Of a DNA stretch of 29,199 nt, positions 206 through 27,228 are shown in pieces. A program made the translations under genes and the position numbers. The notes beneath the pieces are model-generated. The model saw only the letters and a list, made by a program, of their open reading frames with translations, searched no databases and was not told the DNA's origin. Source of the stretch: a virus; the IMG/VR virus record IMGVR_UViG_3300013126_000172, positions 1 through 29,199 of that record; one strand, 5' to 3'. Position 1 is the stretch's first letter; each line of letters starts with the position of its first letter.

Positions 206-901
206 TTAATCTATAAATCCTCCTTTTTTATAAGAATAATTCATTAAAATTTGCCAAACATTAGCCCCAACTGATGGCGATTTTCCAACCTCCCATTTTC
301 CCCATTTATTTTCACCAGATGTCTTACAAACACCTCCTGATCCACTTGCAAATTTATCAAAATCAGATTGTGAAACTTTGAAATAGGTATAAACAGATCC
401 ATCTTGGAATTTAACCACAAGTTCGCCCGTTTCCGTATTGTATTTGAACTTATGAACATTAGCACTTTTTATGGTGTTATTTCTCGTTCTTGTATTACCA
501 TATACGATTTTGAACTGCTCAATATATTCTTGTATCTTGTTGAATTTATAATCATCACTTAATTTTGGATGATCTAATAATTCCTTTATTTCTTCAAATA
601 CTTCCTCATCAGTGAAGAATTGATAACCTTTTGAGCCCAACTCCTTAATCACATCAGAATTGTTGTCGTAGTGTCGTTCTATTTCCAATTCAATAATCTT
701 TTCAATCTTATTTTTATTTGAACCAGTGGCATATACCCTTGAATGTGGAATGCCTAATTTATCGGCTCTATTTAACATCGGTGCTTTATCTTGTCTGGCA
801 CTTATTATATATAATGTATTTCCCTCATCAATTAATTTTTGAGCTAATTCCATACCTCTTGCAGTGGTTATAGTTTCATCATAATCAAAACTTATCTTCA
901 T
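206..901 (-). CDS. HAD-like phosphatase fused to a KTSC domain
   Basis: The N-terminal half looks like a small HAD-superfamily hydrolase. FDYDET places the two catalytic aspartates at residues 6 and 8, YIISAR supplies the motif II serine near residue 34, SNKNK a possible motif III lysine near 63-65, and HYDNN a motif IV acidic residue near 79. The last third (about 145-225) fits the KTSC domain: a strand pattern ending in LVVKFQDGSVYTYF, then a helix and a W-x-W segment. KTSC is known as a small domain with unclear function, found also at the C-terminus of lysyl-tRNA synthetases. The start is chosen because the DxDxT motif must be near the N-terminus. The gene follows the connector by 12 bases. 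Substrate and role are unknown; nucleotide or nucleic-acid 3' phosphate repair is only a guess from the HAD part. Confidence 0.7.
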   Translation of the reverse strand: MKISFDYDETITTARGMELAQKLIDEGNTLYIISARQDKAPMLNRADKLGIPHSRVYATGSNKNKIEKIIELEIERHYDNNSDVIKELGSKGYQFFTDEEVFEEIKELLDHPKLSDDYKFNKIQEYIEQFKIVYGNTRTRNNTIKSANVHKFKYNTETGELVVKFQDGSVYTYFKVSQSDFDKFASGSGGVCKTSGENKWGKWEVGKSPSVGANVWQILMNYSYKKGGFID

Positions 902-913
902 ATAATCAATTTT

Positions 914-1516
914 TTAACATCCCCCACAACCACCATTACCACAATTAAAACACGAATATCTATTACCTATATAAGTTGGTATATCAGGAAATAAATCTAA
1001 TCCCCTTCTTGATGTATAAACACCACTGAAATATGATTTTGAATTTGCAATTACATTCGCATAAGGATCAGGAGATAAATATTGTGGAAATAATTGTGAA
1101 TAATCACACAAGTATTGATTTAACCTTCTGGTAAAAAATTCTGCAAGGTCTCTTATTGAGTTTCTCAAATACTTAATCTCATCCAATTCTGATGGAGCGG
1201 AGAACTCTGATGATTGCTTACTAACCGCCTTATTAGTCATTTTAAAATTTAAAAACGGAAATACCTCATAAAATGCCCATTGTGCAAGACAAGGTTGAAT
1301 ATATGTCCTTAATAAATTTAATTCATCAGAATTTAAATTGTTATTAACAATGCCATCTTTTAATCTATCATATAATGTTGATCCAAGTGCAAGTTGAATA
1401 TGTGTATCTTGTGATGAATAAATATATGGAACAAGGATATTTTCATCAACGTTATCTTGAATAACTGTATTTGATTTTAAATAATCAGTTGATATGAATT
1501 TTACTTTATCGCTCAT
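914..1516 (-). CDS. Head-tail connector (adaptor) protein, DUF6712-like
   Basis: This 200-residue protein directly follows the portal (3 bases apart), where the adaptor that docks under the portal ring is expected. Its sequence fits the mostly helical connector family I know as DUF6712: a segment with LALGSTLYDRLKDGI, a helix LLRTYIQPCLAQWAFYEVFP, a middle T-N-K-A-V strand, and a long helix with YLRNSIRDLAEFF. The C-terminus is odd: the last 15 residues hold five cysteines (CFNCGNGGCGGC at the end) preceded by an aromatic PTYIGNRYS stretch. Such a Cys-rich tip could bind a metal or form disulphides in the virion. The family assignment is by pattern memory and context. Confidence 0.7.
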   Translation of the reverse strand: MSDKVKFISTDYLKSNTVIQDNVDENILVPYIYSSQDTHIQLALGSTLYDRLKDGIVNNNLNSDELNLLRTYIQPCLAQWAFYEVFPFLNFKMTNKAVSKQSSEFSAPSELDEIKYLRNSIRDLAEFFTRRLNQYLCDYSQLFPQYLSPDPYANVIANSKSYFSGVYTSRRGLDLFPDIPTYIGNRYSCFNCGNGGCGGC

Positions 1517-1519
1517 AAC

Positions 1520-2647
1520 TTATTGTATTTGTGTTGGTGTTATTTGTTGTTGATCATCTTTATATGTCTTTAAAACCAATTTTTCACTATATCCCAGTAC
1601 ATCAATAACATCATTAAATGCCCATTCTAATTGTTGTTGTCTTGGTGATATATAATATTGCTGAAATTCATTTAACAATTCCTTTCTTTCATCTGTTGAT
1701 CCTAATTTACCAGGTGTCAAAACAACCAATTGTGGTGGGATCTCGTGAGACATTACAATATTCTTTTCAACCATATCTTGAAGCATTATAAAACGTTCAT
1801 CTGAATCATTTAATTGAATGGGAGTTAATTGTGGTGCTTGATCTTGACCTTCAGAATATGTGATTATTATTTTACCCCCGTTATCAGTTCCTGCATAATT
1901 TCTTTTAAAATCCCTATAAAAATCATCCATTTCTTCAACTGATGGAATGCCAGTACCGAAATTTAAAATAAATGATGGTTGAAAGCCTTGTTTTACTTGA
2001 TTTAAATGGAATTTGCTTATCTCGTAATCTAATTCAATATAATTAATACCTGTTGTATAATTTGATATAGGATATAATTCGTCTTGTTGTGGGTTAGATT
2101 CTATATAATAGAATAATTGTCTTCCAGTTCTTATATTTGGATCAAATTCTCTAATTACTTCAGGATGATATTCATCCTTTTTATATTGATCCCAGTCTTT
2201 TGAATATAAAAAATGTGGAAAATCAATCTCCTTATCTTCTAATCCTCTTCTTATCTTATGAAGTGGGACATAATGTACATCAAATGATGATCCTTCATTA
2301 TTCCAAACAATTTCAAAACAAAAACCATTATATATCTCAAAATCAACATCACATTTGGATATCACCCTATCCAATTTGTTTTTATCAACAAAATCCTTTA
2401 ATTGTGGGTTTAGAATTGATTTAAGACCATATCCCGATGAAAGCCTAACCTTCTTATTAATAATTGATTTATGTGTCGTAGATCCATAATAATTATATAA
2501 TTTTAAAAGATATTCGGGATATTTATTGTCTGATCCCCATTCTACAAAATGATGTGATTTATTCCACTTATATTCTGGTGCAACATAAGCGGCATTGAAG
2601 TTAAAGACCTTAACCATATTCTTTTTTTGTGTTTCGTTATTTTCCAT
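1520..2647 (-). CDS. Portal protein
   Basis: The portal forms the dodecameric ring at one capsid vertex through which DNA is packaged. Evidence is the N-terminal pattern FVEWGSDNKYPEYLLKLYN followed by a helix STTHKSIINKKVRLSSGYG, typical of portal proteins of Bacteroidetes phages, then the central GTGIPSVEEMDDFYRDFKRN stem-like region and a C-terminal segment with PPQLV and a Q-rich tail. At 375 residues it is on the short side for a portal. It is the middle gene of a set of three with near-touching ends (2 to 3 bases), followed by the connector. It lies far from the terminase, behind the capsid genes. Confidence 0.85.
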   Translation of the reverse strand: MENNETQKKNMVKVFNFNAAYVAPEYKWNKSHHFVEWGSDNKYPEYLLKLYNYYGSTTHKSIINKKVRLSSGYGLKSILNPQLKDFVDKNKLDRVISKCDVDFEIYNGFCFEIVWNNEGSSFDVHYVPLHKIRRGLEDKEIDFPHFLYSKDWDQYKKDEYHPEVIREFDPNIRTGRQLFYYIESNPQQDELYPISNYTTGINYIELDYEISKFHLNQVKQGFQPSFILNFGTGIPSVEEMDDFYRDFKRNYAGTDNGGKIIITYSEGQDQAPQLTPIQLNDSDERFIMLQDMVEKNIVMSHEIPPQLVVLTPGKLGSTDERKELLNEFQQYYISPRQQQLEWAFNDVIDVLGYSEKLVLKTYKDDQQQITPTQIQ

Positions 2648-2649
2648 AT

Positions 2650-3042
2650 TTAAAAGAATGTATATTCTGAATTATTATTTATAAATGTATTTTGTGTTGT
2701 GCCCGTTCCAATAATCTCACATAAGCCTGATTCTAATACATCTGAAGTTGTTAAACCTGATATTGATAAAGTTGATCCGCTAGTTTGATAAACCATATAT
2801 GTATATTGACCAGGACTCATTATTGTTCCTGTATATGATGTTAGATCAATAGGAAACCTATTATACCTTGCATTATTTGTTGTCGTGTCAGCAGTTAATG
2901 GTAATGATATTAATGTATTTGAATGATCTTTTTTTGAATAAAATTCAATAATATATTGTGTCATCGCACTATAAGGTATTGTCTGTTTTTCAAATAAAGT
3001 AAAAGGACATTCCGTTATTACATTTTTATAGATCTTAATCAT
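2650..3042 (-). CDS. Small beta-rich protein upstream of the portal
   Basis: This 130-residue protein is not recognised with certainty. It is rich in T, S, N and Y, with predicted strands such as YIIEFYSKKD and GQYTYMVYQTSG and a middle region that reads like an Ig-like or virion decoration domain. It begins the leftward portal-connector-HAD group and ends 2 bases before the portal start. Its ATG lies 8 bases after a TTATATTTAATT box that also precedes two other late genes. A structural role at the head or neck is likely from context; nothing catalytic is visible. Confidence 0.6.
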   Translation of the reverse strand: MIKIYKNVITECPFTLFEKQTIPYSAMTQYIIEFYSKKDHSNTLISLPLTADTTTNNARYNRFPIDLTSYTGTIMSPGQYTYMVYQTSGSTLSISGLTTSDVLESGLCEIIGTGTTQNTFINNNSEYTFF

Positions 3043-3050
3043 AAGTTTTT

Positions 3051-3062
3051 AATTAAATATAA
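3051..3062 (-). promoter_or_regulatory. TTATATTTAATT box upstream of the portal group
   Basis: The same 12 bases occur at 21918-21929 and 22453-22464, in each case 2 to 8 bases before a minus-strand start codon. It may be a -7-type promoter element with a very short leader, or an AT-rich translation leader. The sequence alone does not decide between these. Confidence 0.35.
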
Positions 3063-3085
3063 AACATCATTTTTTGTTTATTTTA

Positions 3086-3117
3086 TTTGGCAGATTGAAA
3101 TATATTGCGTAAATTTG
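3086..3117 (+). promoter_or_regulatory. Plus-strand promoter P1, Bacteroidetes type
   Basis: TTTG at 3086-3089 and TAAATTTG at 3110-3117 match the Bacteroidetes -33 and -7 consensus (TTTG / TAnnTTTG) with a 20-base spacer. The block TTTGGCAGATT is repeated exactly at 28875 with the same 20-base spacing and the same 25-base distance to the start codon, so this is a well supported promoter pair. Confidence 0.75.
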
Positions 3118-3142
3118 TTATATAACATTAAAACAGGAACTA

Positions 3143-3283
3143 ATGACACTTACAAATCAACAACGAAAAGAATTCACAACTAAAGTATTTAATAAATTTG
3201 GTTATGGTTCTGAATATCAATATGTATTATTCTGTGAAGATGATAAATTAATTGAAATATGTAAAATCTTTAAACTAATATAA
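3143..3283 (+). CDS. Small plus-strand protein, 46 residues
   Basis: This ORF begins MTLTNQQRKEFTTKVFNKFG and ends CKIFKLI. It has no recognisable family. It looks real because it starts 25 bases after a good promoter, at the same distance as the right-end gene from its matching promoter, and because its stop is 1 base before the next plus-strand start. It opposes the surrounding leftward structural genes, so it probably belongs to the other expression class (early or moron-like). Charged and polar, with no membrane segment or signal peptide. Confidence 0.6.
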   Translation: MTLTNQQRKEFTTKVFNKFGYGSEYQYVLFCEDDKLIEICKIFKLI

Positions 3284-3284
3284 A

Positions 3285-3503
3285 ATGGCAACAAAAAAGG
3301 AACAATCGAGAGATTTAAAAATCGCATCACAATCTAATTTAAAATTAATTAATGAATGGTCTGGCAATTGTGGTATTTGTCTAACATTAAAGGAACTTGT
3401 GGCATTCACAAATGTATTGAATGATTATGTTGAATATGGTTATTCATCTGAAATTGGTGATAGATTGGAGACAATTGATAACTATTTAAAAAATAGAGAA
3501 TAA
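3285..3503 (+). CDS. Small plus-strand protein, 72 residues
   Basis: This protein begins MATKKEQSRDLKIASQSN and has a central helix CLTLKELVAFTNVLNDYVEYG with two cysteines just before it (NCGIC), then a C-terminal helix IGDRLETIDNYLKN. I do not recognise the family. It is co-transcribed with the 46-residue gene 1 base upstream, from promoter P1, and ends 3 bases before a hairpin that separates it from the oppositely directed tail-tube-like gene. Small size, own promoter and placement between late genes suggest an early or accessory function. Confidence 0.65.
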   Translation: MATKKEQSRDLKIASQSNLKLINEWSGNCGICLTLKELVAFTNVLNDYVEYGYSSEIGDRLETIDNYLKNRE

Positions 3504-21923: not shown

Positions 21924-21949
21924 ATATAATTTTTATTTTATTGTTTTTT
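21924..21949 (-). repeat. 26-base leader repeat, copy 2
   Basis: Exact repeat of 14575-14600. Here the last codons and stop of the HNH gene lie inside it. Its TTATTGTTTTTTAC part also recurs just past the large terminase stop. Confidence 0.75.
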
Positions 21950-22450
21950 ACGTCTATCCCGTAATGCTTTAGCTCTACAATTTAAATGACAATATTTACT
22001 CCTATCAGGGAATGGTGTTTGATATTCTTTACCACAAACTTGACAATTTAAAGTAGTATATTGTTTATTCTCCCACGATTTTTTACCTATTTCACTATGG
22101 AATTTTCTACCTTCTTCTGATTTGTGCCATTCTTTTGATGCTTCTCTACCTTTTTTATTAAATTCTTTGAACCATTCAGGATCTTCTTCAATCCTTCGTT
22201 TTGATTCATAAGATAGATGTTCTTTAGCCATCATCAATTGAAGATTATCAATTCTATTATCGTGACTATCCCCGTTAATATGGTGAATATGAAATCCCTT
22301 TGGTATTTTACCATTATGATATTCCCATACTACCCTATGCATTCTTTTAGTTCCTCTTGAAAAATATCTTTGATTTGGATATAAATAATAAGTTTTACCA
22401 TCAAACTCCTGTGTTGGTATTTCAATTTTTTGTGTTAATTCGCATCCCAT
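21938..22450 (-). CDS. HNH homing endonuclease inserted after terminase
   Basis: This 170-residue protein has an HNH-type nuclease motif: MHRVVWEYHNGKIPKGFHIHH, with H56-H57 and INGDSHDNRIDNL giving the second half. A lysine-rich linker leads to a C-terminal zinc-ribbon-like segment (LNCQVCGKEYQTPF, then KYCHLNCRAKAL). It is free-standing, placed between the terminase and the chaperone. The end of the ORF (KKQ-stop) is made of a 14-base sequence that is repeated 567 bases away just after the terminase stop, suggesting insertion of the gene with duplication of a preexisting junction. Homing nucleases cut uninserted relatives and spread by repair. Not required for virion building. Confidence 0.85.
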   Translation of the reverse strand: MGCELTQKIEIPTQEFDGKTYYLYPNQRYFSRGTKRMHRVVWEYHNGKIPKGFHIHHINGDSHDNRIDNLQLMMAKEHLSYESKRRIEEDPEWFKEFNKKGREASKEWHKSEEGRKFHSEIGKKSWENKQYTTLNCQVCGKEYQTPFPDRSKYCHLNCRAKALRDRRKKQ

Positions 22451-24072: not shown

Positions 24073-24498
24073 TTAATTTTTAAATTCATTTATAATTGAT
24101 TGATCATTTTTGAACCATTCTCTATGTAATTGTTTTAATTTTATAGGGTTATTAAGATGCTTGAATTTTTTATGTATTGTTGATTCTAAAAATGAATAAT
24201 TTGGTAATAATTGAATTATATTTATTTGATTCAATTTCATTTGATTTTTAATTGATCTCAATCTTTCATCTATATTATTAGTTATACCAATTTTTAATAA
24301 ATCCAATTCAGGTGAATATAAAAGATATAATATATTTGAATTCCAATTTTTAGAATATTTTTTACATAATTCAATTAATTCCATAATTTTATTATGTTGA
24401 TCAATAGTTTTTGTATAATTATTATTTATGCAATTCATAATAATATCATCTAATTGATTCATATATTTATAATACTGTTTTTTATCTGATAGTTTCAT
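24073..24498 (-). CDS. GIY-YIG-like nuclease (MUG113/T5orf172 type)
   Basis: The protein is 141 residues. The middle (56-80) reads ILYLLYSPELDLLKIGITNN, which matches the GIY-YIG core in the T5orf172/MUG113 group (x-Y-x-L-x-S, then K-I-G-x-T-x-x and R79). The C-terminal third contains SFLESTIHKKFKHLNNPIKL and EWFKND, the H-x-x-F and E-W-F signature of the group. The N-terminus is helical with no clear family. Its start overlaps the methyltransferase stop by 4 bases (ATGA), and its stop is 2 bases from terS. It may be a homing endonuclease or a damaged relative; the catalytic R and E seem present. Confidence 0.7.
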   Translation of the reverse strand: MKLSDKKQYYKYMNQLDDIIMNCINNNYTKTIDQHNKIMELIELCKKYSKNWNSNILYLLYSPELDLLKIGITNNIDERLRSIKNQMKLNQINIIQLLPNYSFLESTIHKKFKHLNNPIKLKQLHREWFKNDQSIINEFKN

Positions 24499-26429
24499 TT
24501 TAAAAATTGTCTATATTCTTGATAATTTTTTATTCTTGCTTCTGCTATTTTAAAATATTCTTCATCCATTTCCATTCCGATGAATTCATATCCCCCTAAA
24601 AGTGTTGCAATACCTGTTGATCCTGATCCCATAAATGGATCTAATATAACTCCACCTTTTGGTGTTATAAGATTTACAAGGTAATACATAAGTTGAACTG
24701 GCTTAACAGTTGGATGTGATGTTTTATCCTCAAAATGGTCTAAGCCCATATTTCTTTCCTTCTTACTTACTTTTGCTTGATAGAAAAATCTACTTGCTCC
24801 ACCTTTACTTGATGGGTAATCTTTAATGTCATTACCACCACCTAAATTACCTCCATCATATTTCTTTTTTGGCTTTGATGCTCCAGTAATACTAATACCA
24901 CTTTGTTCGTCTAATATTCTACAAGGACAATCGGGGTTGGTATGTATGTCTGCTTTATCTTTATACCAAGTACCTTCTATTTCTTTTGCTGTTGGTTGTG
25001 TTTTTCTCCCATCTTTTTTACCATATTCACCATTTCCATAATTATCAAAAGTTTGTTTTTTTAATCCATTATTTTCACCTTTAATCACTTCATCACATAT
25101 ACACTCTAAAATAATGTTGGCTGGAAATCTACCTTCACTATCTCTATAAGAATTAGTATCACTTCCTCTACCTGCTTCACCACCAGCAAATGTTCCTTTC
25201 GGTGCATTATGTATTGATATAATTTCGATTCCAACCCTACTTCCATCAATATTTATCCCACCAGTTCCATATTTTAATACATTTTCAACAATTGTTTTTT
25301 CTGATAAAGGCTTTCTTGCCAAACAGATTGGTTCATTTAGACAATCCATTTTGTCTTCCTTGTATATAACATTGTCTTCCACAGAATGTCGTTGGATGTC
25401 TTTCAACTTCAAGTTTAAGGCGTTGAAAAGAACCTCCGCAGTTAAGACATTTACATTCACACCATCTGTCTGTTTGTTTTTGACTTGGATGATGTTCTCT
25501 AATATGTTCTGCCACTCCAACGATTTTAAGGTTTTCAAGTCTATTATCAGATTTGATTTCGTTGATGTGGTGTATCTGCTCATCTTTTGATAAAGGTCTT
25601 CCAATATGTTGCTCCATAATCCAACGGTGTTCCAACATATATTTTCCATCAATCTTAATTGCGACATATCCATCAGCCCTTGTAAAGCGACCTGTATATT
25701 GGTGTTTTTCTCTACAAGACATTGAGCAGTATCTAACGCCTCTTTTTGCTCTACTTGGTTTAACTCGGAACTGCTCTCCACAATTTTCACATATAATTTC
25801 CATAATTCACTTTTTATTATATATATCAAGTTTAACGCCGTTCCCTCTAAATCTTCTGGCTTCTGAGCCACGGCTATAATTTCCTGTGCTGGTTTGAGCG
25901 ATGTTCCCCATCCTTCCCATTCAGATTGACCTTTTGTTTCTTTATTATTAACTTCATATCCAAACATTCCATAACTTCCTCCTCCGTGTCTTTTACTATC
26001 ACCAACTACCACTCTTTCATTACCTTGTAATTTATCAACCGCCTTACCGATGTTTAATGACTTTGGAAACCCACTTCCATATAACCACATAATCTGGTCT
26101 CTTATTTCAAAACCAGCATCTTCTATATTTACAGCCATTCTGTGATATGTTCTTGTTCCACCGAATGATACTACATGCCCACCTGGTTTTAACACACGAT
26201 ACACTTCACGCCAGAACTCAACCGTTGGAACTTCAGCATCCCATTCTTTACCCATAAATCCTTTTGATGCTCGTTGAAATGCACCATCAGTTCCATATTG
26301 TGCTGATCCTTCTTTACCAAATCTTTTTCTTATGCTGGTTAAAGCATAAGGTGGATCTGTTACAACACTATCAACTGAATTGTCATCTAGTGTTTTTAAT
26401 AATTCTAAATTGTCTCCCTGTAATATCAT
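24495..26429 (-). CDS. DNA methyltransferase with large insertion
   Basis: The reading frame is open for 644 codons. Residues 1-180 are a normal DNA methyltransferase start: LQGDNLELLKTLDDNSVDSV then DPPY (25-28), VYRVLKPGGHVVSFGGTRT, and SWEGWGTSLKP-type ending; DPPY favours N6-adenine as target. The C-terminus has VILDPFMGSGSTG (594-606), the SAM-binding motif, so motif order (IV before I) is beta-type. Residues about 181-365 are foreign: a short homologous stretch QEIIAVAQKPEDLEGTAL is followed by ~155 residues that are the shadow of a nested HNH gene, and then the methyltransferase resumes at EPICLARKPLSEKTIVENVL. The conserved E-x-I-x-x-A-x-K-P segment therefore appears twice. Whether the product is active is unknown. 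Confidence 0.75.
   Translation of the reverse strand: MILQGDNLELLKTLDDNSVDSVVTDPPYALTSIRKRFGKEGSAQYGTDGAFQRASKGFMGKEWDAEVPTVEFWREVYRVLKPGGHVVSFGGTRTYHRMAVNIEDAGFEIRDQIMWLYGSGFPKSLNIGKAVDKLQGNERVVVGDSKRHGGGSYGMFGYEVNNKETKGQSEWEGWGTSLKPAQEIIAVAQKPEDLEGTALNLIYIIKSELWKLYVKIVESSSELNQVEQKEALDTAQCLVEKNTNIQVALQGLMDMSQLRLMENICWNTVGLWSNILEDLYQKMSRYTTSTKSNLIIDLKTLKSLEWQNILENIIQVKNKQTDGVNVNVLTAEVLFNALNLKLKDIQRHSVEDNVIYKEDKMDCLNEPICLARKPLSEKTIVENVLKYGTGGINIDGSRVGIEIISIHNAPKGTFAGGEAGRGSDTNSYRDSEGRFPANIILECICDEVIKGENNGLKKQTFDNYGNGEYGKKDGRKTQPTAKEIEGTWYKDKADIHTNPDCPCRILDEQSGISITGASKPKKKYDGGNLGGGNDIKDYPSSKGGASRFFYQAKVSKKERNMGLDHFEDKTSHPTVKPVQLMYYLVNLITPKGGVILDPFMGSGSTGIATLLGGYEFIGMEMDEEYFKIAEARIKNYQEYRQFLK
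25333..25803 (-). CDS. HNH endonuclease nested in the methyltransferase gene
   Basis: This 156-residue protein starts MEIICENCGEQFRV with a zinc ribbon (C5, C8, then YCSMSC near 27-32), then an HNH-like core: EHRWIMEQHIGRPLSKDE, QIHHINEIKSDNRLENL and EHIREHHPSQK, and a C-terminal second zinc ribbon (CKCLNCGGSF and FCGRQCY). It lies wholly inside the methyltransferase ORF in a different frame on the same strand; the methyltransferase frame is open through the whole nested gene. The arrangement of HNH core between two Cys clusters fits free-standing homing endonucleases of phages. The codon style and position inside a conserved motif suggest recent arrival. Confidence 0.85.
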   Translation of the reverse strand: MEIICENCGEQFRVKPSRAKRGVRYCSMSCREKHQYTGRFTRADGYVAIKIDGKYMLEHRWIMEQHIGRPLSKDEQIHHINEIKSDNRLENLKIVGVAEHIREHHPSQKQTDRWCECKCLNCGGSFQRLKLEVERHPTTFCGRQCYIQGRQNGLSK

Positions 26430-26707
26430 TTCTTACTTGTTTTTCTTTGCTTGCATGATTGGCAACCTTTTGGTGCTTCTATTGCCGGTTCAGCGTTTAT
26501 TACTTGTTGAATTTGTGGCACATTTGAATTATACCAATTGATAAGTTGTTTTTGATATGCCTTTATCTGTGCCGAACAAAAAGCACATATATTAACCTTT
26601 TCATTCATTAATGTCATAAACATCGTCTCCATCGATTTAACATCAAATTTGGTTACCCTTTTTAATCCTATTAGTCGTTCTAATTCCAATTTTACATTTT
26701 CATCCAT
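26426..26707 (-). CDS. Small protein with Cys pairs
   Basis: This 93-residue protein has a helical N-terminus MDENVKLELERLIGLKRVTK, then VNICAFCSAQIKAYQKQLIN (CxxC, residues 41-44) and a C-terminal GCQSCKQRKTSKK (CxxC). Two CxxC pairs could bind zinc. I do not recognise the family, though similar proteins sit near terminase and methylase genes in Bacteroidetes phages as far as I recall. Its stop overlaps the methyltransferase start by 4 bases (ATGA), so the two are translationally coupled. DNA or protein binding is a guess. Confidence 0.6.
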   Translation of the reverse strand: MDENVKLELERLIGLKRVTKFDVKSMETMFMTLMNEKVNICAFCSAQIKAYQKQLINWYNSNVPQIQQVINAEPAIEAPKGCQSCKQRKTSKK

Positions 26708-26709
26708 AA

Positions 26710-27228
26710 TTATTTTATATTTTTTTTTATTTTAATTTTCATTTTCTTAATGCAATGAAATGCTGATACGTGATCAATATCCCAGTCCTTTTCAATCTCT
26801 CTAAATGTCTTATCTTTAACAAAATATTCTTCCCACATTAAATTGTCAAACCAGCTTTTTGAAATATTCTTATATATCTTCTGTATCTTATCCAATTTCT
26901 CTTCAAATATAATCTTATTCTCAATATCCTGATCGTCGTCCAGAATGGTTATATTCTCATAAAAATCATAATCTTTTATTCTTACATTCTTATGAAAGGA
27001 TGATGTATTACTATGAATTTGAAATCTCACCACGTTGATAAAATAATATTTAAAATATCCTTCATTATATATCCTTTCAATTTTTTCTTTATTCTCCAAA
27101 AATGATAAAGCAATTTCTGATATCAATTCTGGTTTTAAGTCAAATCGGGGAGTTATTAAATTGTTTATAATTTCATCATAAATGCTCCCTGATGTGCAAA
27201 TCTCCTTTAATATGTTATCTAATACCAA
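26710..27228 (-). CDS. Sigma-like HTH transcription regulator
   Basis: The 172-residue protein begins MVLDNILKEICTSGSIYDEI. Its last third reads SKSWFDNLMWEEYFVKDKTF followed by REIEKDWDIDHVSAFHCIKK, a two-helix pattern that resembles sigma region 4 or an ECF-like helix-turn-helix with recognition helix VSAFHCIKKMK. An acidic stretch (LDDDQDIENKIIFEEKLDKI) precedes it. It is one of two sigma-like proteins here and stands at the head of the late genes, so a role in late transcription is plausible. No region 2 core is obvious, so it may act as an anti-sigma or accessory DNA-binding protein instead. The next gene starts 2 bases after its stop. Confidence 0.55.
   Translation of the reverse strand: MVLDNILKEICTSGSIYDEIINNLITPRFDLKPELISEIALSFLENKEKIERIYNEGYFKYYFINVVRFQIHSNTSSFHKNVRIKDYDFYENITILDDDQDIENKIIFEEKLDKIQKIYKNISKSWFDNLMWEEYFVKDKTFREIEKDWDIDHVSAFHCIKKMKIKIKKNIK

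Follow-up and report, generated by a model that had tools for sequence, protein, structure and literature searches.

Results

An HNH endonuclease gene nested in a methyltransferase gene

The window, that is, the whole stretch of 29,199 nt of viral DNA that was analyzed, contains on its minus strand an open reading frame (ORF) for a DNA methyltransferase (MT) that harbors a second ORF, for an HNH endonuclease, in another frame (Table 1). The MT ORF matched the Pfam family N6_N4_Mtase (E=1.5e-32), with the match split in two halves that flank an insert, and its motif order, DPPY first and DPFMGSGST last, is that of the beta class. The relatives with known structure are CcrM, M1.HpyAVI, and M.BceJIV, and the MT motifs are intact on either side of the insert. 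The preliminary description of this DNA, made from the letters alone, had placed an HNH gene of 156 residues inside the MT ORF on the same strand, and both the coordinates and the Pfam match agree with this assignment. The two frames are arranged such that position 3 of the MT codons is position 1 of the HNH codons. The catalytic residues of the HNH core and the putatively zinc-binding Cys pairs on both of its flanks are invariant in 35 relatives, and the predicted fold is of high confidence (pLDDT 90.6). A sequence search for a relative of the HNH protein with a solved structure yielded nothing convincing, and the nearest solved fold, that of I-HmuI (1u3e), was matched weakly (prob 0.89, E 0.077). 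The window contains a further HNH_3 gene of another lineage, which is free-standing and adjoins a terminase-like ORF (21938-22450, minus strand), and an ORF of the GIY-YIG-like T5orf172/MUG113 type (24073-24498, minus strand) shares 4 bp with the end of the MT gene.

Table 1. Positions of the features in the window and of related arrangements at other loci.
Feature	Position	Strand	Basis or remark
DNA methyltransferase ORF, beta-class N6/N4, 644 aa, open across the insert	24495..26429	-	N6_N4_Mtase, PHROG 67, relatives CcrM and M1.HpyAVI
N-terminal MT segment (residues 1-181); catalytic motif DPPY, residues 25-28	25887..26429	-	alignment with empty-site relatives
MT C-terminal part, residues 365-644, AdoMet motif DPFMGSGST	24495..25337	-	
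549-bp insert spanning 183 MT-frame codons; missing in relatives L159-L178; borders accurate to roughly one codon	25338..25886	-	uninterrupted relatives
E-x-I-x-x-A-x-K-P copy 1, EIIAVAQKP, carried by the insert	25857..25883	-	sequence; unstructured in the model
E-x-I-x-x-A-x-K-P copy 2, native, EPICLARKP, downstream of the insert	25308..25334	-	forms strand 368-372 in the model
156-aa ORF for the HNH endonuclease, in a frame other than that of the MT, same strand	25333..25803	-	Pfam, relatives, predicted fold
HNH_3 core, HNH residues 59-100	25504..25629	-	Pfam HNH_3, E=4.6e-10
Apparent intein with HNH in another frame between splicing blocks	L120:405-2315, HNH 850-1905		0 stops in the intein frame vs about 19 expected
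Apparent inteins with out-of-frame HNH	L183-L262, e.g., L188:1477-3738, HNH 2000-2797		
HNH of the second family downstream of GFPKS, MTs without intein blocks	L176:3-1631, HNH 238-738; also L214, L219, L231, L238, L241, L248, L256, L262		
Further HNH, other phase, at another MT site near C-terminal DPFMGAGTT, 682-codon open MT frame	L012:1467-3515, HNH 2824-3315; also L013		

The alignment with uninterrupted MTs that had been proposed as a check defined the insert as an in-frame segment. At this site, the uninterrupted relatives read ...GWGTALKPANEPICLARKPLSEK..., and the window reads LKPA-[QEIIAVAQKP ... KMDCL]-NEPICLARKP, where the brackets enclose the insert. The occurrence of the motif E-x-I-x-x-A-x-K-P on both sides, in differing codons, had been noticed previously; indeed, the two copies share only 14 of 27 nucleotides. 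This pattern extends to the aligned invaded MTs, which have two copies of the motif or a close variant, one on each side of the insert, as compared to a single copy in the empty MTs. The extra copy might stem from an imported flank or, alternatively, from an ancient duplication of the target. The insert had also been thought to be AT-rich, but it is not especially so: its G+C content is 36.6%, with 30.1% in the whole window and 32-38% in the flanking MT sequence. Its codon periodicity tracks the HNH frame. In an AlphaFold model based on 42 sequences (contig-derived rows only; two rows from annotated phage records were left out), the MT core is built around the native second motif copy (block mean pLDDT 93), whereas the first copy (residues 183-193, pLDDT <50) is unstructured, and the insert is predicted mainly as a helical excursion of low confidence.

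The insert belongs to a known but more widespread kind of element

For mycobacteriophages, an element that occupies this MT site in the same phase has been published as the ‘ShiLan domain’ (Genes 2023, 2025). The later of these papers compared ShiLan with nine other phages (Genes 2025), and a further phage with the element, Applejack, was announced in 2025 (PMC12613952). The nearest named relatives, all annotated as DNA methylases, come from the mycobacteriophages ShiLan, MISSy, Pollywog, Bipolar, Mantra, and Starcevich, and from the Cylindrospermopsis phage Cr-LKS3. The window copy agrees with ShiLan in every sequence feature tested: a beta-class phage MT with the insertion at LKPA(x)E / PIxxARKP, junctions that align with those of ShiLan and of empty relatives, an MT frame without a stop codon, first residues of the insert that mimic the 3' flank of the MT, flanking Cys motifs of the HNH, neither an intron nor an intein, and a patchy spread with movement between divergent MTs. 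In all elements, the HNH and MT frames are offset in the same way (tblastn against ShiLan, E=2e-31, 40.8% over 94%). Thus, as judged from these features, the window element is a distant relative of the ShiLan insertion and of an already known kind. The differences are that the HNH identity is only 40-41%, that the window phage is AT-rich and lacks Shine-Dalgarno (SD) motifs, and that the insert comprises 183 codons rather than the 202 of ShiLan. Furthermore, the window HNH has an ATG start, 83 bp inside the insert, and its TGA stop is formed from the MT's own AAT-GAA codons, whereas the TAA stop of ShiLan lies within the insert. The nearest named relative, the DNA methylase of Cr-LKS3 (UKM31241.1, OM373202.1), shares the site, the phase, and the open frame, and its HNH is 55% identical; however, it is annotated as a plain DNA methylase with the HNH unannotated, and it has a strong SD motif.

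To collect further copies, viral and genome contigs were searched with an HNH alignment, and annotated phages were added. Altogether, 67 elements have adjoining MT sequence in the same phase. It flanks 64 of them on both sides, whereas L102 and L119, which are cut by a contig end, and L092 have it on a single side. The set comprises about 40 non-redundant elements at 90% identity, and the G+C content of the loci ranges from 27 to 68%. The loci are mostly from phages, plus one betaproteobacterial and one Woesearchaeota (archaeal) MAG; a search of plasmids with the HNH gave five partial matches, none of which covered 80% of the query. Thus, the ShiLan-type element is far more widespread than reported. 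In L092 (1471-3863), the left half of the MT is missing and is replaced by a C5-cytosine methylase ORF that overlaps the first 11 bases of the HNH ORF, followed by the right half of the MT.

The insert of the window and that of L001 are nearly identical (99.4% of the HNH residues, 97.3% for the in-frame insert), whereas the MT flanks are only 52.6% identical, indicating that the insert is mobile. The window MT is closest to two empty MTs, L168 (74%) and L172 (68%), which exceed any invaded MT. The DNA identity jumps at the insert edges, and co-conversion is slight.

Both frames are under purifying selection

The absence of stop codons from the MT frame throughout the insert, emphasized in the preliminary description, is well beyond chance. 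Dinucleotide shuffles of the insert contained 13.5 stop codons on average, and none of 1,000 was open; synonymous shuffles of the window HNH gene predicted 4.4 stop codons in the MT frame, whereas none was observed (P about 0.0002-0.001). A frame that is open by chance is ruled out by these two types of shuffling. Among the 67 nested elements, across their entire G+C range, not a single one has a stop codon in the MT frame. In 79 free-standing HNH loci, in contrast, the same relative frame contains 4.2 stop codons on average, compared with 3.9 upon synonymous shuffling of those genes.

The distribution of substitutions likewise differs between free-standing and nested genes: the third positions of the HNH codons hold 64-96% of the differences between relatives in the former but 40-56% in the latter. 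We classified the substitutions in observed sequence pairs by their effect on the two frames; no sequence was used in more than one pair of an identity band, although a few occur in more than one band. The ratio of changes that are silent in HNH but alter the MT (SN) to changes silent in both frames (SS) was 0.40 (95% 0.32-0.53) in 19 pairs of relatives, which have few doubly silent sites, compared with 0.88 (0.63-1.41) in free-standing HNH controls, which belong to other HNH clades and have a shorter matched length. These values argue that purifying selection acts on both the MT and the HNH frame, in line with the earlier suggestion that selection keeps both frames open and that the segment is dual coding. 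An NS/SS ratio of 0.16-0.20 shows that the HNH frame is constrained even more than the MT frame, and an NN/NS ratio of 0.87 that the MT-frame constraint is weak where a change also alters HNH. In a codon-permutation test of host-frame similarity, the nested set showed excess conservation in both alternative frames; therefore, it is the class-based SN/SS comparison, and not the permutation test alone, that singles out the MT frame.

Stop codons in the frame in question were found at one locus, L120, where an HNH of this family follows a truncated MT and the frame contains 12 of them. Thus, the frame need no longer stay open after the MT has been lost. Since the constraint on the MT frame is moderate, the data speak more strongly for a frame that is kept translatable than for one that serves a separate function. 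Because the codon periodicity of the insert matches the HNH frame and related HNH genes occur free-standing, the HNH reading probably came first, and the MT frame was accommodated to it.

A conserved start for the nested gene

Of the 40 non-redundant elements, 29 have a good SD match, often TGGAGG, 4-9 nt upstream of the family-aligned HNH start, compared with 20% for other ATG and GTG codons nearby (P=1e-12). In ShiLan itself (L063:3417-3501), the sequence is ACTGGAGGACGA-GTG, such that GGAGG precedes, by four bases, a GTG at the aligned position of the conserved HNH start of the family. The published HNH start of ShiLan is a GTG 18 bp into the insertion, for which no ribosome-binding site was reported and leaderless initiation was proposed (Genes 2025). 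In the window and in L001, the HNH frame opens one codon ahead of the ATG, leaving no room for an upstream extension, which, together with the conserved position, favors the downstream start. The literature leaves open how the hidden HNH gene is translated, and the conserved SD motif probably provides a simple explanation. The window HNH has no SD motif; however, no gene of the window phage has an SD match (the mean duplex energy is above background), and the start therefore fits the habit of its own genome. Genes without SD motifs are typical for phages of SD-poor hosts, such as Bacteroidota.

A probable non-splicing homing element and its alternatives

Very probably, the insert represents a homing element of the ShiLan-domain kind that does not splice, with an internally started HNH gene, an MT frame that is kept open, and a retained loop. 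The HNH homing endonuclease would be translated from a start internal to the MT gene and would cut insert-free MT genes at the conserved coding site KPA-NEPI, and repair would copy the element into the cut gene, as the distribution of the element suggests. The insert would be removed neither from the RNA nor from the protein. The stop-free and moderately constrained reading through the insert suggests that the MT is still translated into a single chain; the enzyme would then tolerate an extra loop of 183 residues and presumably remain active.

If the insert were instead a self-splicing intron with an HNH ORF, it would leave the mRNA, and the open host frame would be irrelevant. Phage introns often bear HNH genes, and the insert is mobile and occupies one conserved site; with the HNH endonucleases of group I introns such as I-HmuI, the window protein shares an HNH with DNA-binding parts. 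However, a cmscan of positions 24400-26800 against Rfam revealed no catalytic RNA core of a group I or group II intron, nor any other family, up to E=1, and the published search in ShiLan likewise ended without an intron. Moreover, introns have no need of an open host frame, yet all 67 elements maintain one, and changes in the MT frame are selected against, which renders an intron highly improbable. Equally improbable is an unusual intein, or another protein-splicing element, that is excised from the MT chain. Such an element would explain an in-frame, open, and mobile insertion at a conserved site, and the patchy pattern among the many invaded relatives resembles that of homing-endonuclease inteins, which occur in the same MT family. 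Nevertheless, the window MT matches no intein family, the insert begins with Q and is followed by N-E-P, so that a Cys/Ser/Thr nucleophile pair is missing, the low-confidence model of the insert appears to lack a Hint fold, and the endonuclease, unlike that of inteins, is out of frame.

The two remaining alternatives concern the MT. It is improbable, although slightly less so than splicing, that HNH alone is real and that the MT is dead, with its frame open by chance or as a relic. The periodicity of the insert and the moderate constraint on the MT frame would fit this reading, but the frame is open in 67 of 67 elements across 27-68% G+C, the SN/SS ratio is low, and the MT motifs are intact on both sides. 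Also unlikely, if somewhat less remote, is the possibility that the MT has come to use the insert as a domain, for example, for target recognition, and does not just tolerate it as a loop. The constraint on the MT-frame amino acids and the predicted helical nature of the insert would be compatible with such a role, whereas many close MTs lack the insert, the model is of low confidence, and the history of the insert tracks HNH and not the MT.

Homing elements within genes normally spare the host gene by splicing out. The ShiLan-type element appears to stay in and to encode, in the other frame, a second, tolerated protein segment. It thus offers a clean natural case of dual coding, in which empty-site alleles and free-standing HNH genes serve as built-in controls, and it implies that many genes annotated as phage methylases contain an overlooked endonuclease. 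What the present analysis adds to the published work is the wider spread, the measured dual-coding selection, and the SD motif that precedes the HNH start in the majority of elements, ShiLan among them.

Other out-of-frame HNH genes in methyltransferases

Overprinted HNH homing endonucleases are likely to be a general, recurrent class in phage MTs and not an oddity of mycobacteriophages: at least three HNH groups, each at its own MT site, seem to lie out of frame inside open MT frames, and in one group the HNH gene is flanked by the splicing blocks of apparent inteins, with both frames kept open by selection. The exceptional locus L120 led to a second HNH family, in which 79 of 81 loci have an out-of-frame HNH ORF in the other phase and the host frame has no stop codons, compared with about 4-20 expected. 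At 74 of the 79 loci, MT matches were found on both sides in the host frame. As judged by motif, about 49 loci of this family are in apparent inteins between YG and SGFPKS of the MT, an intein site that is also used in ShiLan. These apparent inteins start with block A (CLSEDTEIL...) and end with ...GAFVARRNGKVFITGN, followed by S; the matches to intein profiles were weak in L120 and L207. Our literature search found no report of an out-of-frame HNH in MT inteins, which is not proof of absence. If this arrangement is confirmed, a single DNA segment would specify the splicing domains of an intein in one frame and its endonuclease in another. The further HNH group near the C-terminal MT motif, represented by L012, conforms to the same pattern, with no stop codon observed in the host frame where 11.6 are expected.
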